DNA of 14,735 bases from Chloroflexota bacterium (GTDB taxonomy: Bacteria; Chloroflexota; Limnocylindria; Limnocylindrales; CSP1-4), in the NCBI GenBank assembly GCA_021815005.1, contig JAKAHL010000018.1:1-14735 (forward strand). The letters run 5' to 3'. The notes under the pieces were generated by a model, which was given only the letters and a program-made list of their open reading frames with translations, did no database searches and had not been told where the DNA came from. Both the position numbers and the translations under genes were made by a program. Shown one piece after another: positions 1,271-13,471 of the stretch; the stretch's first letter is position 1, and every line of letters begins with the position of its first letter.

Positions 1271-2485
1271 TTGCAGTTTTCGAAGCGGCTGATCGCGCTC
1301 GGCGCGACGACAGCCATCGTCATCTCCGCGTGCAGCGGCTCGTCGGCCACGCCGGCGCCGAGCGCTGCCGCGTCCGCGGCCCCGTCCGCCGCCGCGGCTG
1401 CCAGCGCCGCCCCGAGCGCAGCGGCATCGGCCGCGGCGTCGGCCGCCAGCTCGGCGGCCCCGTCCGCTGCCGCGTCCCAGAACACCAACTGGGTTGCCTG
1501 CGTCGCGTTCGACACGGGCGGTCTTGGTGACAAGGGATTCAACGACCTCGCCAAGAAGGGCCTGGACGAGGCGGCGGCGCTGGGCATGACCACGCACTAC
1601 AGCGAGGCCAAGGGCTCGACCGACTACGCGGCCAACATCCAGCGCCTGCTCGACCAGGGCTGCCAGTCGATCATCGCGGTCGGCTTCAACCAGCAGCAGG
1701 CCGTCCAGACCGCCGCCCTGGCCAACACCAAGGTGGACTTCGGCCTGGTGGACGCCACGTGGGACCCGAGCGGCCCCGACGGCAAGATCGGCACCGCCGA
1801 CGACATCAAGCAGCCGGCCAACTTCACCGGTCTCGACTTCCAGATCGACCAGGCCGCGATGCTCGCGGGCTACCTCGTCGGCGGTTGGAGCAAGACCGGG
1901 ATCATGGGCACGTACGGCGGCCAGCAGTTCCCCGGCGTGACCCGGTTCATGGACGGCTACTACGCCGGCATCAAGTACTGGGACCAGGAGAAGAGCGCGA
2001 GCGTCAAGCTCCTGGGCTGGGACGCCTCGACCCAGACCGGCACCTTCGTGAACGGCGACAACCCGTGGGGCGACGCGGCCAAGGGCGAGTCGCTCGCCAG
2101 CGGCTTCGTGGACCAGGGCGCTGACGTGGTCGGCCCGGTCGCCGGCTCCACCGGCAACGGCTCGATCAAGTTCATGCAGTCCAAGGGCCTGTGGGCGATC
2201 GGCGTGGACACCGACCAGGCCGTCTCGCTGCCGCAGTACGCCAGCGCGATCCTGACCTCCGCGCAGAAGGTCATCGACAACGCCGTGCTCGACACGTTCA
2301 AGATGAACGCCAACGGCAACTCGGGCGGCGGCAACTACGAGGGCACCCTCGCCAACGGCGGCGTCACCCTCGCCCCGTTCCACAACTTCGACAGCCAGAT
2401 CTCGGCCGACCTCAAGGCTGGGATCGACGCCCTCAAGGCGAAGCTGATCGACGGCAGCGTCAAGGTCTCCGACTACCTCAAGTAG
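1271..2485 (+). CDS. BMP-family nucleoside-binding lipoprotein of an ABC importer
   Basis: Extracytoplasmic substrate-binding lipoprotein of 404 aa that would capture nucleosides and hand them to the permeases encoded downstream. Residues 1-20 are a type II signal peptide with charged Lys5-Arg6 and a hydrophobic core, ending in the lipobox I-S-A-C with lipidated Cys21. Residues 22-69 are a low-complexity Ala/Ser/Pro tether. The BMP/PnrA fold starts near 72. Its hallmark is DTGGLGDKGFND (81-92), and the conserved AAMLAGYLVGG (195-205) and AIGVDTDQ (309-316) follow. An acidic Gly-rich loop, DPSGPDGKIGTADD (165-178), looks like an insertion with calcium-loop character. The TTG start is fixed by a strong Shine-Dalgarno box. 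It is the first gene of the operon and is followed by a long hairpin, as expected when the binding protein must be made in excess. The family fits purine or general nucleosides; the exact ligand is not readable. Confidence 0.93.
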   Translation: MQFSKRLIALGATTAIVISACSGSSATPAPSAAASAAPSAAAAASAAPSAAASAAASAASSAAPSAAASQNTNWVACVAFDTGGLGDKGFNDLAKKGLDEAAALGMTTHYSEAKGSTDYAANIQRLLDQGCQSIIAVGFNQQQAVQTAALANTKVDFGLVDATWDPSGPDGKIGTADDIKQPANFTGLDFQIDQAAMLAGYLVGGWSKTGIMGTYGGQQFPGVTRFMDGYYAGIKYWDQEKSASVKLLGWDASTQTGTFVNGDNPWGDAAKGESLASGFVDQGADVVGPVAGSTGNGSIKFMQSKGLWAIGVDTDQAVSLPQYASAILTSAQKVIDNAVLDTFKMNANGNSGGGNYEGTLANGGVTLAPFHNFDSQISADLKAGIDALKAKLIDGSVKVSDYLK

Positions 2486-2516
2486 TCGAGTCGCGACGTC
2501 TGGTCTGACCAACCTG

Positions 2517-2552
2517 CCCGCCCGCCCCCGGGGTCGCCCGGGGGCGGGCGGG
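2517..2552 (+). terminator. perfect 16-bp intercistronic hairpin (attenuator or mRNA stabiliser)
   Basis: The arms 2517-2532 and 2537-2552 are perfect reverse complements, almost wholly G/C, with a 4-nt loop GTCG. The hairpin begins 31 nt after the lipoprotein stop and ends 23 nt before the ATPase start. No T-run follows, so full intrinsic termination is unlikely. Partial termination, or protection of the upstream message from 3' exonucleases, would give more binding protein than membrane components, as is usual for ABC importers. Confidence 0.75.
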
Positions 2553-2575
2553 TCGCATCCGAGGGTCGAACGCGC

Positions 2576-4077
<1,502 letters not shown>

Positions 4078-4081
<4 letters not shown>

Positions 4082-5280
4082 GCAGCCTGCGACGGCGGCT
4101 GAGGCCCGCCGTGATCCCGATCCTGGCGGTCATCTCGGCCTTCATCGTCGGTTCGGTGTTCCTGATCTTCACCGACATCCCGGCGCTGCAGCAGCTGTTC
4201 GGCGGCCAGCCCCTCGGCTTCCTCGGGACGGCCCTGGGCAACGTCGTCAAGGCCTACACCGCGCTGCTCACCGGCTCGCTCGGCGACCCGTCCCGCTACG
4301 CGGATGCGCTGCGGCTGGGGACGCCCGACGCGTGGGCCACGGCGGTGCGGCCGCTCAGCGAGACCCTGGTCGCGGCGACGCCGCTGATCTTCACCGGCCT
4401 CGCCATCGCCGTCTCGTTCCGCTCGGGCGTGTTCAACATCGGCGGCGATGGCCAGTTCGTGCTCGGCGCGCTCGGCGCGACCGCGACGGCGCTGCTCATG
4501 CGCGGCCTCCCGGCCCCGCTCATCCTGGTCGCGGCGCTGGCGGCGGGGATCGTGTTCGGCGCGGCGTGGGGCTTCATCCCCGGCTTCCTCAAGGCCCGGA
4601 CCGGGGCCCACGAGGTCATCACCACGATCATGCTCAACTACGTGGCGCTGCAGATCGTCCAGCTGTCGCTGCGGACGGACTTCATGCGGCCGCCCACCGG
4701 CTCGGAGCCGATCTCCAAGGTGATCGACTTCGTCCGCGTCCCGGCGCTGCTGCCGCTGCCCGGCCTCCGGCTCCACTGGGGGTTCGTGGTGGCCCTGGTC
4801 GTCGCCGCGCTGGTGTCCTACTTCATGTTCCGCACGACGAAGGGCTTCGAGCTCCGTACCGCGGGCCTCAACATGACGGCGGCGAGGTACGCCGGCATGA
4901 GCGCAGGCGGCTCGATCGTCCTGGCGATGGTCGTGTCGGGCGCCCTGGCCGGCCTCGGCGGCGCGTTCCAGGTGCTGGGCACCGTCACCCAGATGTCCAA
5001 CGACATCGACGCCGGCTACGGCTGGACCGCCATCGCGCTTGCCCTGCTGGGCGGCACGCGCCCCGGCGGCGTGGTCGTGGCCGCGCTGCTCTTCGGCGCG
5101 CTCAACAACGGGGGTCACGAGATGCAGATCGAGACGTCGATCCCGCTCGACCTGCTGGTGTTCATCCAGGCGCTCGTGATCATGTTCGTCGCCGCGCCGG
5201 ACCTGGTGCGCAAGATCTACCGGCTGAGGGCCAGGGGCACGGAGCCCGGCACGCCCGCCGAGGAAGGAGCCGCCGCATGA
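4078..5280 (+). CDS. nucleoside ABC transporter permease 1 (BPD_transp_2 family)
   Basis: Integral membrane permease (400 aa), one half of the importer's transmembrane channel. An N-terminal membrane segment (about 10-31) follows an Arg-rich start, then a long loop (32-90) precedes the permease core. Core motifs typical of BMP-linked permeases are visible: SGVFNIGGDGQFVLGALGA (116-134), EVITTIMLNYVA (179-190) and GLNMTAARYAGM (263-274), the last being the cytoplasmic coupling loop that contacts the ATPase. GYGWTAIALALLGG (313-326) follows, with a final segment near 355-373. The TTG start with GGGAGG 6 nt upstream overlaps the ATPase stop by 3 nt. The stop overlaps the ATG of permease 2 (ATGA). 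The two permeases should form a heterodimer. Confidence 0.93.
5264..5269 (+). promoter_or_regulatory. ribosome binding site of permease 2
   Basis: AAGGAG lies 7 nt before the ATG at 5277, within the last codons of permease 1. It fixes the permease 2 start, although its reading frame is open far upstream. Confidence 0.85.
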
Positions 5281-6593
5281 CGGCCGCGGCCGCGCCCGTC
5301 AACGTCGCCACGCCCGTCGCGAGCGAGGCCGAGCGCCGGGCCCACCGGAGTGCCCGCATCCGCGGGATCGTGATCGCCGCCCTGGGGGTCATCGCCTTCG
5401 GGCTGGCCGTCAACACCCTCGGCGGGGACGTCACGTTCAAGTTCTGGCTCCAGCAGCAGGGCAAGGCGTTCGCCCAGGTGGACACCAGTCCGGGCGAGCT
5501 GTGGATCCTGACGGGCCTCGCCACCGGGTTCACCGGCCTCTGGCAGCTCTGGCGGGGCGCCGCGGTCCGCTGGCGGCTGTGGCTGGTCCTGTGGCTGCCG
5601 TTCTGGGTGGTGGCCACCATGGGCACGCTGCTGGACCGCCAGACCGCCGTGCTCACCAACCTGTTCTCCAGCACCCTCGAGTACGCCTTCCCCATCTCGA
5701 TGGGGGCGTTCGCGGCGCTGATCAGCGAGCGGTCCGGCATGTTCGACATCGCCGTCGAGGGCCAGATGCTGGTGGGCGCCGCGGCGGCGTCGATCGCGGG
5801 CAGCATGGCGCTCCAGTGGCTGGGCCCGGACGCGGGTGCGATCGCGGGACCCGTCATCGGCCCCGCGGCGGCCGCGCTGTCCGGCATGGGCATCGGGCTG
5901 CTCATGGCGTGGCTGGCGATCCGGTACCACGTGGACCAGATCATCAGCGGGACGGTTGTCAACTTCGGCGCCCTGGGCCTCACGAACTTCCTCTACCTGC
6001 GGGTGCTGCAGACCTACACCGACTACAACACGCCGCCGACGATCGAGAAGATCCAGATCCCGCTGCTGGCGGACATCCCGGTCCTGGGGCCCATCTTCTT
6101 CCAGGGCACGCCGTACATGTACATCGGCTGGGTCGTGATGCTGGTGCTGACCTACTTCATCTTCCGGACGCGCTGGGGCCTCCGGCTCCGGGCGTCGGGC
6201 GAGTACCCGCAGGCGGCGGCCACGGTGGGCATCAACGTCATCCGCATCCGCTACCGGGCCATGATCCTCGCCGGCGCGATCGCCGGCTTCGCCGGCTCGT
6301 ACCTGTCCCTGCACTCGGCCGGCAGCTTCCAGATGAACATGTCGGCCGGCAAGGGCTGGATCGCGATCGCCGCCATGATCTTCGGCGCCTGGAACCCGAT
6401 CGGCGCATTCGGCGCTGCCCTGGTGTTCGGCTTCGCCGACGCCGCCCAGCAGCTCCTCTCGGAGCTCGGCGTGACCATCCCGCCGCAGTTCCTGGCCAGC
6501 GTGCCGTACCTGCTGACCGTCGTCGTGGTCGCCGGTGTCGTCGGCCGCGTGCGCGGACCGGCCCAGGCGGGGCAGCCGTACGAGCAGGGGTGA
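5277..6593 (+). CDS. nucleoside ABC transporter permease 2 with extended N-terminus
   Basis: Second membrane permease of the importer, 438 aa. The BPD_transp_2 core begins near 130. It carries SERSGMFDIAVEGQMLVGA (150-168), matching the family's RxGxxNIGxEG region but with Asp157 where Asn is usual. VDQIISGTVVNFGALGLTN (219-237) and the cytoplasmic coupling loop around SGEYPQAAATVGINV (307-321) follow. Family members are commonly about 300-320 aa. The extra roughly 130 N-terminal residues carry a basic stretch (20-29) and three hydrophobic segments (about 30-48, 75-92 and 100-116), so this protein probably has additional helices. The true start is the ATG at 5277, which overlaps the permease 1 stop and has AAGGAG 7 nt upstream. 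The open frame extending to 4332 is a shadow of permease 1. Confidence 0.92.
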   Translation: MTAAAAPVNVATPVASEAERRAHRSARIRGIVIAALGVIAFGLAVNTLGGDVTFKFWLQQQGKAFAQVDTSPGELWILTGLATGFTGLWQLWRGAAVRWRLWLVLWLPFWVVATMGTLLDRQTAVLTNLFSSTLEYAFPISMGAFAALISERSGMFDIAVEGQMLVGAAAASIAGSMALQWLGPDAGAIAGPVIGPAAAALSGMGIGLLMAWLAIRYHVDQIISGTVVNFGALGLTNFLYLRVLQTYTDYNTPPTIEKIQIPLLADIPVLGPIFFQGTPYMYIGWVVMLVLTYFIFRTRWGLRLRASGEYPQAAATVGINVIRIRYRAMILAGAIAGFAGSYLSLHSAGSFQMNMSAGKGWIAIAAMIFGAWNPIGAFGAALVFGFADAAQQLLSELGVTIPPQFLASVPYLLTVVVVAGVVGRVRGPAQAGQPYEQG

Positions 6594-6597
6594 GCCG

Positions 6598-7647
6598 GTG
6601 AGCGCCGGCGTCAACCTCGAAGACTGGGGACCCGTCCACGCGATCCCCACCTACCACAGGGTCAAGGCGGGCGAGCGCACCGCACCGGTCGGGACCCGGG
6701 AGCACCCGCTCCCGCTCATCATCGACAGCGATCCCGGCTTGGACGACGCGCTGGCCATCGGCCTGGCCTGCGCGTCGCCGGAGGTGCGGCTGCTGGCGGT
6801 GACGACCGTGGGCGGCAACGCCGACGTGGCCCGCTGCACCGAGAACGCCCTGCGCCTGCTCCACGCCTACGGCCGAGACGACGTGCCGGTTGCGGAGGGG
6901 GCGGCCGGGGCGCTGCTGGGCGACATCGTCCGGGCCACCGAGGTCCACGGCGTGTCCGGCGTGGGCAACACGCAGCTGCCGCCGGCGCCGACGGAGGCGC
7001 GCCCGGAGGGGGCCGTGGCGCTCATGGCCCGGCTGCTCGCCGAATCGCCGGAGCCCGTGGCGATCGCGCCGATCGGGCCGCTCACCAACATCGCGCTGCT
7101 GCTCAGGACCTACCCGCACCTCGCCCCGAAGATCGCCCACCTGTGCCTGATGGGCGGCTCGATCGGCGAGGGGAACACCACGGCCGCGGCCGAGTTCAAC
7201 GTCGTGGCGGATCCCGAGGCGGCCGACGCCGTCTTCCGGAGCGGCGTGCCGATCACCATGATCGGCCTCGACGTGACCCACCAGGCGCTCCTCGACCGGG
7301 CGGCCGCGCAGGCGCTGCGGGGCATCGGCAACGCGTCCGGCCGGATCGCCGCCGAGCTCACCGACTACGCGCTCGACCGGAACCTCGAGTGGTCCGGCGC
7401 CACGTCCACGGCGATCCACGACGCGGTGGCGATCGCGCACCTGATCGTGCCGGACCTGGTCGCGGTCGCCCGGTACCACGTCGCGGTCGACACGGGCCAC
7501 GGCCCGGCGCGGGGCCGGACGGTGTGCGACGGGCTGCCGTACCGGCTCCGGCGCCTGGGGCTGGTCCCCAACGCCGACGTGGGGATCGTGATCGACCGCG
7601 GCCGCTTCGAGCGGCTCCTGCTGGACGCGTACTCGAGGCTCCCGTGA
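6598..7647 (+). CDS. nucleoside hydrolase 1 (inosine-uridine preferring family)
   Basis: Cytoplasmic enzyme (349 aa) that hydrolyses the N-glycosidic bond of a nucleoside to base and ribose. The metal-binding DxDxxxDD motif is DSDPGLDD at 43-50. The substrate loop AEFN is at 198-201, and the His-Asp pair of the active site is His274-Asp275 in IHDAVA. The ribose- and metal-contact region LMGGS (184-188) is present. About 38 extra residues precede the fold and contain no signal peptide. I chose the GTG at 6598, with AGGGG 7 nt upstream, 4 nt after the permease 2 stop. A later start would leave no suitable codon near the fold. The importer context says it acts on nucleosides brought in by the ABC system; base preference cannot be read. 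It shares the fold with the next gene but the two differ throughout. Confidence 0.92.
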   Translation: MSAGVNLEDWGPVHAIPTYHRVKAGERTAPVGTREHPLPLIIDSDPGLDDALAIGLACASPEVRLLAVTTVGGNADVARCTENALRLLHAYGRDDVPVAEGAAGALLGDIVRATEVHGVSGVGNTQLPPAPTEARPEGAVALMARLLAESPEPVAIAPIGPLTNIALLLRTYPHLAPKIAHLCLMGGSIGEGNTTAAAEFNVVADPEAADAVFRSGVPITMIGLDVTHQALLDRAAAQALRGIGNASGRIAAELTDYALDRNLEWSGATSTAIHDAVAIAHLIVPDLVAVARYHVAVDTGHGPARGRTVCDGLPYRLRRLGLVPNADVGIVIDRGRFERLLLDAYSRLP

Positions 7648-8600
7648 CCCCTGACCCTGCCACCCGAACGCCCGTCATCATCGACTGCGACCCGGGCCAC
7701 GACGACGCCCTGGCGATTGCGCTGGCATTGGCGAGCCCGGAGGTCGAGGTGCTGGGCATCACCACGATCGGCGGGAACGCGCCGCTGGCAGCCACCACGC
7801 GCAACGCCGGGAGGGTCCTGGCGCTGCTCGGGCGGGCGGACGTGCCGGTCGCGGCAGGTCCGGCGCAGCCGCTCAACCGGCCCCTGGAGACGGCGCCCCA
7901 AGTGCACGGGGTGTCCGGCCTTGACGGCGCGGACCTGCCCGAGCCGCTGGCCGCGCCCCGCCCGGAGGGCGCGCTCGAGTTCCTCCGCCAGACGCTGCTC
8001 GCCGCGCCCGCGCCGGTGACGCTGGTGCCCACCGGACCGCTGACCAACATCGGCCTGCTGCTGAGGACGTACCCCGAGGTTGCCGCGAAGATCGGCCGGA
8101 TCTCGCTCATGGGCGGCGCGATGCGGGCCGGCAACTGGACGCCGGCGGCGGAGTTCAACATCTGGGTGGATCCCGAGGCGGCCCGGATCGTCTTCCGGAG
8201 CGGCCTGCCGATCACGATGTGCGGGCTCGAGGTGACGCACAAGGCGCTGTTCGGGTGGCCGGAGATCGCCCGCCTGGACGCGCTTGGCACGCGGATCGGC
8301 ACGGTGTTCGCGGACCTGCTGCGGTTCTTCGTCAAGTTCCACCTCGAGCGGTACGGCACCGCCGACACGCCGGTCCACGACGCCGTGGCGGTGGCCGCCG
8401 TCGCGCGGCCCGGGATGGTCGGCACGAGGCGCTACCACGTGGACGTGGAGGTCACCGGCGAGCTGACGCGCGGCCGGACCGTGGTGGACGACCGCGGCCA
8501 GAGCGGCACGGGGCTCGAGGCCAACGTGGACGTGGCGCTCGACATCGACCGCGCGGCCTTCGCGGACCTGCTGATCGGCGCGATCGCCAGCTACGGCTGA
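7644..8600 (+). CDS. nucleoside hydrolase 2 (inosine-uridine preferring family)
   Basis: Second nucleoside hydrolase (318 aa), of standard family length. The metal site is DCDPGHDD (14-21), the conserved TTIGGNA is at 40-46, AEFN at 169-172 and the active-site pair is His245-Asp246 in VHDAVAV. The central LMGGAMRAGNWTPAAEFNI region (155-173) closely follows bacterial ribonucleoside hydrolases. GTG at 7644 overlaps the TGA of hydrolase 1 (GTGA), with GAGG 5 nt upstream, so the pair is translationally coupled. Close motif parallels with hydrolase 1 suggest an old duplication followed by divergence, or assembly of two paralogues with different substrate ranges such as purine versus pyrimidine nucleosides. 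It is the last gene of the importer operon. Confidence 0.93.
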   Translation: MTPDPATRTPVIIDCDPGHDDALAIALALASPEVEVLGITTIGGNAPLAATTRNAGRVLALLGRADVPVAAGPAQPLNRPLETAPQVHGVSGLDGADLPEPLAAPRPEGALEFLRQTLLAAPAPVTLVPTGPLTNIGLLLRTYPEVAAKIGRISLMGGAMRAGNWTPAAEFNIWVDPEAARIVFRSGLPITMCGLEVTHKALFGWPEIARLDALGTRIGTVFADLLRFFVKFHLERYGTADTPVHDAVAVAAVARPGMVGTRRYHVDVEVTGELTRGRTVVDDRGQSGTGLEANVDVALDIDRAAFADLLIGAIASYG

Positions 8601-8704: not shown

Positions 8705-9751
8705 TCAGCCCGCTGGCGTCAGCCACGTCGGGTAGTCCACGACATGCACGGGCGTGCCGTCTTTCGCGGACAGGTCGTAGACGCGGAGCGTGCCCCACTG
8801 TCCCTTGCCCACCGCGTACCCGAGCGTCGTCGAGAAGTCGCCCCAGCAGCCGGTGCCGCAGGCGGCTTGCACCTGCTGGTCGGCCAGGACCGTCCCGGCC
8901 GCGTCCCTGATCTGAGCTCGGAACACGGCCTCGAAGACGTTGGCGGTCCCGCTGACCCGGGCGGGGTTGCCCGCGGCCGCGCCCCACGCCGGGCGGTCCA
9001 CGAAGATCGCGGGCAGCCACGAGGTCGCCGCCGCGCGGGTCGCGGGCCAGCCGCTGACGGGCTGGCCGTTCAGCTCGAAGGCCACTTGGCCGACCGTCGA
9101 GAACTGCGTCAGCGCGTAGAGCAGCTGGGCCACGCGGGCGCTCGGCTTGGCGGGGTCCATCCCCGCCGCGAACTCGCTCGAGAGGTCAACCGTGGCCAGG
9201 CCCTTCGAGATGGCGAGGCCCAGGAGCCGCGTGTCCGCCGGGACGTCCGACGAGACCGCGGGCTGCGCGTTCCGCTCGCTCGCGTTGGGCCCGGCGATCA
9301 ACTCGCGGACCGCCGCCGCCGCAACCCCAGCCGTCGCCGGGATCTCGCGCAGCACGGGCACCAGGCCGGCATCGCCGGACGGGCCCGCGATGAGGAAGTA
9401 CGCGCGGACGATCACCGTCCCGGTCGCCGCGGGCGCCGCCGTGGGGGAGGGGACTGGTGCGGTCGTGGGCAGGTCCTGGCTCGCGTCGGCCGGCGTCGCG
9501 GGCGCGCCGGACGCAACGGGCGCGCTGGGCGCGCCGGGTGTGGTGGACGCGCTTGGCGCGCCGGAGGGAACGGACGCGCTGGGCGCGCCGGACGCCGTCC
9601 CGCCCGATGAGGGCACGACAGACGCGCCCGCGGCGGGGGACGTCGCGGCCGTCGTGGCCGTCGGCTGGGTCGCCGGGGCGCAGCCGGCCACCAGCCCGAC
9701 GACCGACAGGGCCACGAGGAGTGCGGAGGGAAGGCCGGCGGCGGCGCGCAT
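8705..9751 (-). CDS. GerMN/Gmad2-domain lipoprotein
   Basis: Secreted lipoprotein of 348 aa. Residues 1-23 form a signal peptide ending in V-A-G-C, with lipidated Cys24. Residues 25-110 are a Ser/Ala/Pro/Thr linker containing four 9-residue repeats (54-89). A GerMN domain follows at about 112-235, with TVIVRAYFL (112-120), the stretch VREL (148-151) and ATVDLSSEF (186-194). A Gmad2 immunoglobulin-like domain completes it at about 248-348, with ARVSGTANVFEAVF (264-277) and GYAVGKGQWGTLRVYDLSA (311-329). These domains are known from spore-germination GerM, actinobacterial LpqB (GerMN) and many cell-envelope lipoproteins; their ligand is unknown. I chose the ATG at 9751 because GAGG lies 8 nt upstream and it opens directly into the signal peptide. 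The frame continues to 9814, but that part overlaps the kinase gene. It starts 13 nt after the stop of the kinase homologue, so the two are co-transcribed. Confidence 0.85.
   Translation of the reverse strand: MRAAAGLPSALLVALSVVGLVAGCAPATQPTATTAATSPAAGASVVPSSGGTASGAPSASVPSGAPSASTTPGAPSAPVASGAPATPADASQDLPTTAPVPSPTAAPAATGTVIVRAYFLIAGPSGDAGLVPVLREIPATAGVAAAAVRELIAGPNASERNAQPAVSSDVPADTRLLGLAISKGLATVDLSSEFAAGMDPAKPSARVAQLLYALTQFSTVGQVAFELNGQPVSGWPATRAAATSWLPAIFVDRPAWGAAAGNPARVSGTANVFEAVFRAQIRDAAGTVLADQQVQAACGTGCWGDFSTTLGYAVGKGQWGTLRVYDLSAKDGTPVHVVDYPTWLTPAG
9501..9608 (-). repeat. four tandem 27-bp repeats in the lipoprotein linker
   Basis: The palindromic core GGCGCGCCGG recurs at 9501, 9528, 9555 and 9582, an exact 27-nt period. 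In protein this gives four 9-residue units: SGAPSASVP, SGAPSASTT, PGAPSAPVA and SGAPATPAD (residues 54-89). The array stays in frame whatever the copy number, so linker length could vary between strains by slippage. Confidence 0.8.
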
Positions 9752-9764
9752 GGCCGTGACCTCG

Positions 9765-11312
9765 CTAGGGGTTCCGATGGGCCCCAGCGTCCTCTGCCGG
9801 CGCGTTGGCCGCATCCCCCAGAGGTAACGAACCGGTCACGGCTGCGCGCGGCACGGCCAGCGCGAGGATGAGCCCTCCGCCCGGCCGGGCGCGGACCCGG
9901 AGCGAGGCGCCGATCGTCGCGGCGTCTGCGGCGGCGCCGGCCAGGTCGTCGTCGGCCGAGGCGCCGGACCGAGGCGGATTCCCCTCGGCGCGACGCTCGA
10001 ACAGGCGAGCCAGGGCATCATGCGGCACCGCCGGTCCGCGGTCGGCGACCGTCACCACCGCCCCGTCGCGCACGGCCACGACCGACAGCTCGGCCATGGC
10101 GTCCGGAGAGCGCCGCGCGACGCTGTCGACGAGACGGTCCACGATCCGCCCGAGGCGGCGCGCGTCCGCCACCGCCACGACGGGCTGCGGCGGGAGGGCC
10201 ACGACCGCTCCGGGCAGGCGCGCCGCGACCGAGGCCTCCAGCAGCCGGCCGAGGTCCACCGCCTCCACGGCCGGCGGCTCGGCCAGCGTGTCGGTCAGGC
10301 CGGCGGGGACAGGGCCGTGACCGCCGCCCGGCAGCCCGCCCACCGCTCCGGGGGACGAGAGCGGGCCGCGGCGGGCTTCCCGCTCGAGGCTCGGCCCCGC
10401 CGCCTGCAGGGCGTCTGCCGCGCGGTTGAACGCCCGGGCCAGGTCGGCCAGCTCGCCTCCGCCCCGGACGGGCGCCCGCGCTGAGAGGTCGCCGTCCGCG
10501 AGGCGCCGGGCCGCATCGGCCACGCCGCCAACGGGCCGCAGGAAACCCCTCGCCACGACGTGCGCGGCGAGCAGGGCGAGCAGGACGGCGACGGCCACGC
10601 CCGCCAGGATGGCCAGGCGGATCCGGTCCAGCGCCCGGTCCACGGGCGTCGCGTCGTACAGGAAGTAGAGGTCCGGCGGCCCGAGCTGCCGCCCGCCGAC
10701 GATCAGCACGCTCCTGCCACGGAGATCCTGCCAGGCGTACCCGAGGCCGCCTCCCGCGACGGTCGCCCGGAGCTGCGGGTCGATCTCCGGCACGGCGTCG
10801 GCCAGCGCCGGGTCGGACGCGAAGACGTCGCCGTTGCCGTAGTCGGCGATCGTGATCGCGTCGCCGCGGATCTGGAACGCGGCGGGCAGGCCGCTCGCGG
10901 CGAACGCGGCGGCGGTGGCGGGCGCCGGGACGACGGCCGGCAGCAGCACCGTCAGGTTGAACGTCGCCTGGCGCTGGGCCTCGGCGACCATCGCGTCGCG
11001 CAGGGAGGCGTCGGCGGTCGCATAGGCCCCGACCCCGACGCCAGCCGTCGTTGCCGCCGCGAGCGCCGCCAGCAGCAGGGCCAGCCGCAGGCGGAGGCCG
11101 CCCGGCAGCCGAGCGCGACGAGGCCAGCGGCGCGGGCGCGCCCGGCCGGGATCCCGGGGGACGCCTGCCGCCGAGGCCGCGTCCGGGCGCCCGCCGATCT
11201 CAGTGGCCCCCGTGTGCGGGCTCGCCCAGGAGCCTGTGGATCCGCTCGTCGTCCAGGCCCAGCTGGTGCCCGACCTCGTGGAGGACGGTGGACCGGACCC
11301 GCGCCCGGACAC
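9765..11312 (-). CDS. degenerate HAMP-containing sensor-kinase homologue, probably catalytically inactive
   Basis: Membrane protein laid out like a sensor histidine kinase. Numbering from the GTG at 11312: membrane segment 1 at about 75-98, an extracytoplasmic region at 99-228, membrane segment 2 at 232-254, HAMP at 255-309 (with RRLADGDLSAR, 269-279), a short linker at 310-350, and a GHKL-like ATPase fold at about 352-490. The dimerisation/phosphoacceptor domain with its H-box is missing; only about 40 Gly/Pro-rich residues fill its place. In the ATPase part the N-box reads LVDSVARRS (395-403), with Ser where Asn is expected. The G1 box is ADRGPAVP (423-430), and no G2 GxGLG motif is found. 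The start is uncertain. GTG 11312 has GAGG 6 nt upstream but overlaps the peptidase gene by 113 nt, and no ATG, GTG or TTG lies between the peptidase end and membrane segment 1. It is co-transcribed with the GerMN lipoprotein, and no response regulator is adjacent. Confidence 0.7.
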   Translation of the reverse strand: MSGRGSGPPSSTRSGTSWAWTTSGSTGSWASPHTGATEIGGRPDAASAAGVPRDPGRARPRRWPRRARLPGGLRLRLALLLAALAAATTAGVGVGAYATADASLRDAMVAEAQRQATFNLTVLLPAVVPAPATAAAFAASGLPAAFQIRGDAITIADYGNGDVFASDPALADAVPEIDPQLRATVAGGGLGYAWQDLRGRSVLIVGGRQLGPPDLYFLYDATPVDRALDRIRLAILAGVAVAVLLALLAAHVVARGFLRPVGGVADAARRLADGDLSARAPVRGGGELADLARAFNRAADALQAAGPSLEREARRGPLSSPGAVGGLPGGGHGPVPAGLTDTLAEPPAVEAVDLGRLLEASVAARLPGAVVALPPQPVVAVADARRLGRIVDRLVDSVARRSPDAMAELSVVAVRDGAVVTVADRGPAVPHDALARLFERRAEGNPPRSGASADDDLAGAAADAATIGASLRVRARPGGGLILALAVPRAAVTGSLPLGDAANAPAEDAGAHRNP

Positions 11313-11595
11313 CCTCGACCTCGGGCGCCGATCGGATGCAGGGACCCTTGTAGATCGTGATCGTCGAGGGCGGCCGCACGGCGACCGAGCCGTCGAGCAT
11401 GCCCAGGTGGAAGCCTCGGAAGTGGCCGTACAGGTCGTAGGCGCCGTAGTGGGCCTTGAGCTCGGCCGGCGCCTCGTCCTCGATCAGGACCGCGAGCGAG
11501 CCCAAGCCGAGCCGGAGTCGCTCGGGGAGCTCGTCGAGCGCGTCGAACACCCAGTCCTCGAACGTGTCGTCGTCGATCTGGCGAGGGTCGTCCAC
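11200..11595 (-). CDS. small zincin-type metallopeptidase (possible zincin family, PF06262-like)
   Basis: A 131-aa protein with no signal peptide or membrane segment. The zinc motif HEVGH is at 106-110 and is followed by QLGLDDERI (111-119), the HExxHxxGxDDE pattern typical of the small 'possible zincin' family. The middle contains the family-like STITIYKGPCIR (77-88). The length matches the usual 120-140 aa. The acidic N-terminus (1-25) fits the family too. The family's substrate is not known to me. The GTG at 11595 has only a weak purine stretch upstream. It is the first gene of the minus-strand unit, and its 3' end overlaps the only canonical start codon available to the kinase homologue. 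It diverges from the hybrid kinase across 238 nt in which I see no gene and no clear promoter. Confidence 0.85.
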   Translation of the reverse strand: MDDPRQIDDDTFEDWVFDALDELPERLRLGLGSLAVLIEDEAPAELKAHYGAYDLYGHFRGFHLGMLDGSVAVRPPSTITIYKGPCIRSAPEVEGVRARVRSTVLHEVGHQLGLDDERIHRLLGEPAHGGH

Positions 11596-11833: not shown

Positions 11834-13471
11834 TTGGCGACCGACATGCGACGGGCGAAGGGGCGGCGCCGGCACGCGCCGGACGGTGGCGATGCGCGTG
11901 GCTCTGGCGTCGGCCCGCGCGCGTCCGGCCCGACACCGGTGTCGGCCGCGCCGGCTGCGCCCACCGTGCCGGCAGAGCACGGCCGCCTCCTCGCCGCGAT
12001 CGAGCAGTCGAGCGACGGCGTCCTTGTCCTCGACCAGGACCGTCGGGTCAGCTATGCGAACGGCGCGCTGCTGCGCATGAGCGGCTTCGAGCGAGAGCGC
12101 CTGTACGGCAACCCGCCCTCGGTCCTGTTCGGCGGGCCGGCGAGCGGCACCCTGCCGGCCGCCGTCGAGCGGGGCTCGGCGTGGTCGGGCTCGCACCCGG
12201 CGTGGACCGCGGACGGCCGGACGTTCGAGGCGGAGTGGGCCGTGACGCCGACCCTCGACGCCGATGGCGGCCTGTCGGGCATGGTGGCGGTGGCCCGCGA
12301 CCGCACGCGCGAGCGGGCGCTCGAGGCGCAGGTCGCCCGCATCCAGCGGCTCGAGGCGCTCGGCCAGTTCTCGGCCGGGATCGCCCACGACTTCAACAAC
12401 CTGCTGGCCGCGATCCTCGGCTACGCGGGGATGCTGCGCGACGCGATCGCCGGCGACGACACCGCGGCGCGCGATGTCGAGGAGATCGTGGCCGCCGCGG
12501 ATCGTGGCGCCACCCTGGTCCGCCAGCTCGTCGCGTTCAGCCGCAGGCAGATCACGCGGCCCGAGGTGGTGGACCTCAACAACGTCGTGAACGAGGTGGC
12601 GCCCATGCTGCGTCGCCTCCTGGGCGAGCAGGTCCACCTGCAGACGAACCTCGCCGGCGGCCTCGGGCACGTGCTCGCCGACGCAGGCCAGCTGGAGCAG
12701 GTGCTGGTGAACCTGGCCGGCAACGCCCGCGACGCCATGCCGGGCGGCGGCCGCCTGACCATCGAGACGACCAACGTGACGCTCGACGAGGTCTACGCGA
12801 GCCAGCACGCCGGCGTCAACCCCGGCCGCTACGTCCTCCTGGCCGTGAGCGACACGGGGATCGGGATGGACGCCGGCACGCTCGCCCAGATGTTCCACCC
12901 GTTCTTCACCACCAAGGGGCCTGAGCACGGCACGGGGCTCGGCCTGGCCACGGTCCACGGCATCGTGTCGCAGGCGGGCGGCCACGTGTGGGCGTACAGC
13001 GAGCTCGGTCTCGGCACCAGCTTCAAGGTGTACCTGCCCCGGGTGGACAGGTCGGTGGCGTCGCCCGCGGCAGGCGTCTCGGTCCAGCCGGTGGGCGGCA
13101 CCGAGACGATCATGCTCGTGGAGGACGAGCCGGCGCTCCGCAGCCTCATGGCGAGGGTCCTGGAGCGGGCCGGGTATCGCGTCCTCGTGGCGCCCCATCC
13201 CCATGCGGCGCTCGCGACGCCGCCCGGGGTTCTGGACGGCGTGGCGCTGCTCCTCACGGACATGGTGATGCCCGACCTGTCCGGCCCCGAGCTGGCGGCG
13301 ATCCTGCTTGACCGCGTCCGCGGCCTGCGCGTCCTGTGCATGTCGGGCTACGCCGAGCAGTCGGCCGCCTACCAGGGGCTGGGCGCGGCCGTGACCGACT
13401 TCATCGCCAAGCCGTTCACCGCCGAGCAGCTGCTGGTGACCATCCGGGGTCTGCTCGACGCGCGGTCCTGA
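11834..13471 (+). CDS. soluble hybrid sensor histidine kinase: PAS, HisKA, HATPase, receiver
   Basis: A hybrid kinase of 545 aa with no membrane segment, so it probably senses a cytoplasmic signal. After a disordered, basic Gly/Pro N-terminus (1-46), a PAS domain spans about 48-160, starting RLLAAIEQSSDGVLVLD (51-67). HisKA carries the phosphoacceptor His185 in GIAHDFNNLLAAILGYAG (182-199). The HATPase has an N-box at LVNLAGNARDAMP (291-303, Asn297), G1 SDTGIGM (339-345), an F-box FHPFFTTKG (354-362) and G2 GTGLGLATV (366-374). The receiver domain (about 424-543) has acidic Glu430-Asp431-Glu432, phosphoacceptor Asp476 in LLLTDMVMPDLSG, and Lys526 in DFIAKPF. All catalytic residues are intact. 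The phosphate probably passes from His185 to Asp476, and the final output partner is not in this window. The TTG at 11834 is preferred on its ribosome binding site; ATG 11846 is the alternative. Confidence 0.93.
   Translation: MATDMRRAKGRRRHAPDGGDARGSGVGPRASGPTPVSAAPAAPTVPAEHGRLLAAIEQSSDGVLVLDQDRRVSYANGALLRMSGFERERLYGNPPSVLFGGPASGTLPAAVERGSAWSGSHPAWTADGRTFEAEWAVTPTLDADGGLSGMVAVARDRTRERALEAQVARIQRLEALGQFSAGIAHDFNNLLAAILGYAGMLRDAIAGDDTAARDVEEIVAAADRGATLVRQLVAFSRRQITRPEVVDLNNVVNEVAPMLRRLLGEQVHLQTNLAGGLGHVLADAGQLEQVLVNLAGNARDAMPGGGRLTIETTNVTLDEVYASQHAGVNPGRYVLLAVSDTGIGMDAGTLAQMFHPFFTTKGPEHGTGLGLATVHGIVSQAGGHVWAYSELGLGTSFKVYLPRVDRSVASPAAGVSVQPVGGTETIMLVEDEPALRSLMARVLERAGYRVLVAPHPHAALATPPGVLDGVALLLTDMVMPDLSGPELAAILLDRVRGLRVLCMSGYAEQSAAYQGLGAAVTDFIAKPFTAEQLLVTIRGLLDARS

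Follow-up and report, generated by a model that had tools for sequence, protein, structure and literature searches.

What becomes of a two-component system when its sensor kinase loses the catalytic machinery and the input half persists? The question is raised by a gene in the window analyzed here, a stretch of 14,735 nucleotides from contig C264 of a draft Chloroflexota genome (G000, 72% complete). A first-pass annotation had described a sensor-kinase homologue that might be a pseudokinase, a scaffold for the neighboring lipoprotein, or a decaying gene. We compared the locus with related genomes, including the sister species of the same genus, Chloroflexi bacterium BP4.bin63 (G002, JAJXTS010000092.1, 85% complete). 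Its features are as follows.

8705..9751, minus strand: GerMN lipoprotein gene (Germane and Gmad2 by Pfam), in an LpqB-like position
9765..11198, minus strand: degenerate MtrB-like sensor kinase in the frame common with G002; 477 codons plus stop, aligned to the G002 orthologue and 30 intact kinases
9823..9839, minus strand: GTGACCGGTTCGTTACC, an MtrA-site-like direct repeat within the 3' end of the kinase gene; the lipoprotein gene follows downstream
9849..10292, minus strand: HATPase remnant without the N-box Asn and the G2 glycines (Pfam and alignment)
10293..10400, minus strand: linker at the site of the missing DHp/H-box domain; fast-changing and mostly predicted to be disordered
10401..10556, minus strand: HAMP domain, residues 215-266 (Pfam, 7.3e-15; 8e-15 for the ORF at 9765-11312)
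10644..10991, minus strand: extracytoplasmic sensor domain, residues 70-185, with alpha/beta elements in the AlphaFold model
10992..11108, minus strand: TM1 region; its CTG at 11108, shared with G002, could act as a non-standard start
11124..11126, minus strand: ancestral start-codon position, to which the start residue of many intact homologues aligns; TGG here, GGG in G002
11200..11595, minus strand: Zincin_1 metallopeptidase gene (Pfam); the regulator gene that adjoins it in intact relatives is missing here
11310..11312, minus strand: in-frame GTG within the zincin gene; no start codon at this place in G002

By these coordinates, 13 nt separate the kinase stop codon from the ATG of the GerMN gene. 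Elsewhere in the window, positions 1271-8600 hold a nucleoside uptake cluster with a BMP-type binding protein (Pfam match) and genes that we take to encode an ABC ATPase, two permeases, and two nucleoside-hydrolase-like proteins. A PAS-HisKA-HATPase-receiver hybrid kinase lies on the plus strand (11846-13471) between the zincin and phosphomannomutase genes; it is not at the matching place in G002, where those two genes are ~110 bp apart.

Losses in the kinase

The TM-sensor-TM-HAMP input half is retained, with TM1, the extracytoplasmic domain, TM2, and HAMP all present as the first-pass annotation had judged. The AlphaFold model of the window protein (mean pLDDT 74.6, pTM 0.42) places helices at residues 35-88 and 184-234. 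The 50 Foldseek matches listed are mostly histidine-kinase and phytochrome structures, and they give the sensor fold no name.

Pfam detects no HisKA domain in the window protein, and the H-box falls in a stretch that is missing relative to the intact homologues and appears as a gap in the alignment. The AlphaFold model contains no DHp hairpin, and residues 274-307 have pLDDT below 50. Measured by Pfam borders, the HAMP-to-HATPase_c spacing is 78 residues, compared to 116 in the intact homologue P0010. Both the absence of the H-box helix and the shortened junction had been described before and are borne out here, as is the argument against a simple frameshift: the net loss in the DHp region keeps the reading frame, and no H-box occurs in the other minus-strand frames over the gap in the window locus.

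The HATPase_c match of the window ORF is marginal (27.2 bits for a cut-off of 26.4), and that of the G002 orthologue falls below the cut-off (23.5 bits). In the window kinase the N-box DNAREHA has become DSVARRS, confirming the reported replacement of Asn by Ser, and FERFYK reads FERRAE. The change of the N-box Asn to Ser and that of the G1 motif GPGV to GPAV occur in both species. The G2 motif GLGL is DDDL in both species. The loop had been called missing, but it is substituted at equal length rather than deleted. Judged from these motifs, the kinase should not autophosphorylate or relay. What makes a functional sensor histidine kinase is thus gone, namely the DHp His, the N, G1, and G2 motifs, and an adjacent cognate regulator, and only the input half is in place.

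Homologues and the start of the gene

We scored 7996 candidate proteins and retained 33 homologues at E of at most 1e-20, of which 31 contain HisKA. The two exceptions are the G002 protein P0002 and P0001, which is almost identical to the window protein; both gene models start at an ATG after TM1. The motif alignment used the 30 intact homologues P0003-P0032, and the weak match P0033 was left out. Some match was found in 55 of 61 related genomes searched, although many of these are generic HAMP or ATPase matches, and one of the same genus, G002, possesses a full-length orthologue (83% identity) showing the same losses. A search of genome contigs returned the G002 record and three distant matches (26-32%).

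Close relatives thus carry a normal HisKA at this place, which had been named beforehand as a refuting sign of a recent deletion or an assembly error and is borne out in part. Since JAJXTS010000092.1 is in the same state at 83% identity, the losses are not an assembly error, and the chance of such an error or of a very recent deletion in one genome is negligible. Frameshift and assembly error alike were ruled out by this orthologue, by the other frames, and by the alignment.

The ORF had been drawn from the GTG at 11312. That GTG falls within the zincin gene, and G002 has no start codon there. We use the common frame from 11198 to 9765. The frame in G002 has no ATG, GTG, or TTG upstream of TM1, and the ancestral kinase start is lost in both species. 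The ATC at 11198 and the CTG at 11108 are common to both and could serve as non-standard starts. Because G002 has no standard start, continued translation requires an unusual or recently lost one.

An ancestral regulator-kinase-lipoprotein set

Six genus members with intact loci have the gene order zincin, MtrA-like regulator, MtrB-like kinase, and GerMN lipoprotein. The set resembles MtrAB-LpqB of Actinomycetota, with the same order of regulator, kinase, and GerMN lipoprotein, a GerMN-domain protein directly downstream of the kinase, and a direct-repeat sequence of MtrA type at the kinase loci. MtrB is the best NCBIfam match of the intact kinase P0010 (288 bits) and MtrA that of the G004 regulator (264.5 bits), both below the equivalog cut-offs of 450 and 300, respectively; the window protein scores 90 bits against MtrB. 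The systems differ in phylum (Chloroflexi, by the G002 record) and in the lipoprotein, which here combines Germane and Gmad2 and has no NCBIfam match. The window itself, moreover, lacks the regulator, and its kinase is degenerate. Among 10 of 455 literature matches we found no published report of an MtrAB-LpqB-like set in Chloroflexi; one may exist. LpqB is reported to bind the extracellular domain of MtrB (PMC3353115).

A regulator orthologue (at least 80% identity) occurs in six of the 12 genus genomes, and these are the six with intact kinases (G001, G003, G004, G005, G010, and G011). In the remaining six, the best regulator is a paralogue at 47-53% identity (53% in G000 and 52% in G002). 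The regulator is missing beside the kinase in both G000 and G002, and on the G002 contig the zincin gene abuts the degenerate kinase. With drafts 72% and 85% complete, it is possible that the regulator was relocated elsewhere in the genome. The G006 contig holds only the 3' end of the kinase, with a normal G2 motif. In two further genus members the zincin gene is followed directly by GerMN, and the stretch fetched contains nothing that matches the regulator or the kinase.

G009, L145 1568-2982: locus without regulator and kinase; zincin next to GerMN, with roughly one repeat half remaining
G007, L149 78-1428: locus without regulator and kinase; zincin next to GerMN, with roughly one repeat half remaining

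G016, G022, and G025, from other genera, likewise carry GerMN in different surroundings, and the stretches fetched from them contain no match to either regulator or kinase. The occurrence of GerMN without regulator and kinase in these five genomes indicates that it does not need the kinase.

A tree of the flanking transporter and hydrolase proteins (G005 not included) places G004 beside G000 and G002, but in zincin and kinase G004 is hardly nearer to these two than G003 or G005 is. Recombination at the locus is likely. The identity of G004 to the window is 89-91% in a permease and nucleoside hydrolase and only 54-67% in zincin, kinase, and GerMN, a contrast that suggests a recombination boundary. 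Judging from the flanking genes only, the gene loss in G007 and G009 would be separate from that in G000 and G002. The zincin protein is itself more diverged in G000 and G002 than in relatives (identity to G011 of 0.44 for G000 vs 0.56 for G004), and despite this divergence its present-day omega is 0.06.

A direct repeat at the kinase 3' end

The repeat occupies the last kinase codons, includes a TTA codon, and has the form GTGAC-n6-GTTACC in the window. Of the 15 kinase loci with the 3' end in view, 14 have the pattern GTnAC-n6-GTnAC at this place (G000-G005, G010, G011, G014, G017, G019, G020, G031, and G035); the exception, G006, has one mismatch. What is conserved is DNA rather than protein, since the stop codon of the G004 kinase falls inside the repeat. 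A stricter form, GTNAC-n6-GTTACC, has 10 matches in the 12 genus genomes, eight of them at the kinase 3' end and two elsewhere. It shows no genome-wide enrichment (10 matches vs 8 of a control pattern in the same 12 genomes), and the case for the repeat therefore rests on position. In the family, 56 of 107 genomes have a match to the strict motif, and other genera have further matches elsewhere. At the matching place, by eye, G007 has one GTGACC and G009 has ATGACC. G000 and G002 retain both halves even though the regulator is missing.

PMC6265350 quotes the MtrA motif of M. tuberculosis as cGTnACc, four bases, cGTnACc, and the repeat with its flanking C fits this description. An S. coelicolor study (PMC5650626) also reports two short direct repeats, whereas the motif strings tabulated for S. 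venezuelae in PMC13189361 look unlike the present repeat. The repeat may be an operator of MtrA type that controls the GerMN gene and to which the regulator would bind. With eight of the 10 strict matches in the 12 genus genomes at this position, the regulator may have a single dedicated target in the genus.

Selection and maintenance of the frame

Between G000 and G002, omega is 0.35 for the whole kinase gene and 0.02-0.10 for nine neighboring genes, with values that vary with the codon-frequency model. By part, it is 0.12 for the TMs with the sensor, 0.26 for HAMP, 1.2 for the linker (49% amino acid identity), and 0.28 for HATPase, whose last third gives 0.20 (2dlnL 9.5); upstream of TM1 it is 1.1-1.25. 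The sensor domain is the slowest-changing part (13 differences in 348 nt), and changes in TM1 are mild (L/F, A/S, T/A, and G/V). GerMN has an omega of 0.10-0.11, with no acceleration in the two species. Selection on the kinase is relaxed, not absent, and with dN/dS below 1 the gene is not a plain neutral pseudogene. The dN/dS check proposed in advance thus returned values well below 1 for the sensor half and relaxation for the gene overall.

Simple counts (pN/pS 0.79 overall) give only a weak rejection of neutrality, with a P of 0.06 for the whole gene, or of 0.375 if mutation is AT-biased. Depending on mutation bias, P is 0.02 or 0.11 for the sensor and 0.22 or 0.45 for HATPase. In a branch model of eight species with the tree set by hand, tip omega is 0.21-0.33 for the sensor/HAMP half, below 1 under both codon-frequency models (2dlnL 12.7-23.5), and 0.37-0.57 for HATPase (2dlnL 3.2-9.4). 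Stem omega is 0.05-0.19 vs a background of 0.07-0.15 for the sensor half, showing no relaxation, and 0.23-0.33 vs 0.05-0.09 for HATPase, although near-saturation of silent sites and the hand-set tree make the stem values unreliable. Changes at codon positions 1 and 2 relative to position 3 number 22/474 and 24/237 in the sensor half (p = 0.009) and 32/290 and 20/145 in HATPase (p = 0.43).

The location of the changes is informative. In residues 70-267, 8 of 16 changes hit conserved columns, compared to 30 of 283 in 11 disjoint intact pairs (p = 2e-4; a small sample of 16 changes); for HATPase the figures are 17 of 28 and 36 of 254 in 12 intact pairs (p = 2e-7). A first, uncalibrated version of the sensor-half test was not significant, and ordinary constraint on this half was rejected once the test was calibrated against intact pairs. 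Both species have lost 30 of 130 conserved sensor-half positions. The changes thus spare conserved columns no more than random change would, and neither half keeps the site pattern expected of a working sensor kinase, although the first half changes more slowly.

The frame has nevertheless been kept. Over 1434 bp, the two kinase genes differ by one 3-bp indel, with no stop and no frameshift, whereas three spacers in the same genomes carry 7 indels in about 104 bp, 13 in about 118 bp, and 2 in about 90 bp; these are the three longest clear spacers and possible hot spots. Shorter spacer bits (about 45 and 34 bp) have zero indels, and stretches of the second region left unclassified by a crude coding test add six more. 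The contrast between kinase and spacers is large and makes it probable that the frame was maintained through most of the period after the split. In neutral simulations, 80-90% of runs gave at least one stop. Neither the omega near 1 nor the frame damage of a pseudogene is seen. Plain neutral decay over the whole interval is disfavored by the few indels and the sensor-half omega, although simple counts alone could not reject it.

Explanations for the degenerate kinase

In our judgment, the gene is probably a catalytically dead MtrB-like relic of a system that is being dismantled stepwise, with the lipoprotein being what selection keeps. It looks like a system caught during dismantling rather than a new kind of signaling. 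The ancestor would have carried an MtrAB-LpqB-like set of regulator, kinase, and GerMN lipoprotein. Loss of the regulator gene, and of the DHp domain and ATP-site residues of the kinase, would have preceded the split of G000 and G002; afterward, the ORF would have stayed open, with the TM/sensor/HAMP half changing more slowly. Given the open ORF and the slower half, translation probably continued through most of that period. Any residual role would be non-catalytic, most likely a contact between the sensor domain and GerMN by analogy with LpqB and MtrB. Several observations sit uneasily with this account. A frame held end to end and a sensor-half omega well below 1 exceed what a dying gene needs, the sensor half shows no stem relaxation, and the last third of HATPase is itself constrained. 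GerMN manages independently of the kinase in five genomes, G002 would need an unusual or recently lost start, and the regulator might merely have moved in these incomplete drafts.

The original suggestions of a pseudokinase, a scaffold, or a decaying gene survive in part: the motif losses stand and a residual scaffold role is possible, but stepwise dismantling is favored over a stable pseudokinase because the regulator is missing, the ancestral start codon is gone, changes hit conserved sites, and G007 and G009 have no kinase at this locus but keep the lipoprotein. A stable, useful pseudokinase, in which the sensor/HAMP half senses the envelope or scaffolds GerMN and the ATPase remnant is a passive tail, is unlikely. 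It would explain a state common to two species, the held frame, the low sensor-half tip omega without stem relaxation, the slower codon positions 1 and 2, and the mild TM1 changes, and it accords with the reported LpqB-MtrB contact; it fits poorly with changes that no longer avoid columns conserved in intact sensors, the lost conserved positions, the missing standard start in G002, and a model without a DHp hairpin. We are more doubtful still that the kinase has become a pure membrane partner of GerMN, an MtrB cut to its LpqB-binding half and translated from a non-standard start; if true, a three-component signaling set would have turned into a two-part envelope complex. That the gene is a pseudogene no longer translated in either species seems improbable: the lost ancestral start, the omega above 1 before TM1, and simple counts that are compatible with neutrality for HATPase and reject it only weakly for the whole gene are set against the single 3-bp indel, the absence of stops that most neutral simulations produced, the indels gathered by the three spacers, and an omega that stays under 1 in the sensor half with either codon-frequency model. 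Very unlikely is an ORF kept open merely for translation through to GerMN, avoiding polarity, with the protein irrelevant. This idea overlaps with stepwise dismantling and suits an intact frame in which the ATPase-half changes look random, the in-frame DHp-region loss, and the closeness of stop and ATG, but the sensor half changes more slowly, a start codon would be needed too, and G007 and G009 manage without the ORF.

Known pseudokinases of the histidine-kinase family offer a partial parallel. ChrS (with a frameshift in the CA domain), DivL, and RocA are, like the window kinase, membrane sensor kinases without catalysis; ChrS acts via a paralogous kinase and its regulator, whereas the window kinase has no DHp domain and its cognate regulator was not found. 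DivL and RocA retain DHp-like helices. Bacterial unitary pseudogenes resemble the locus in the loss of partner, ancestral start codon, and motifs and in having relatives with the full deletion. They differ in that here there is no frameshift or stop and one half changes more slowly.

Taken across the genus, the loci form a graded series, from the intact set (six genomes) through a missing regulator and dead kinase (G000 and G002) to the absence of both genes from the locus (G007 and G009), and the lipoprotein gene is retained at every stage. This series suggests that a GerMN (LpqB-like) protein can be important even where its two-component system is lacking, and it provides natural knock-outs for studying the role of GerMN lipoproteins.
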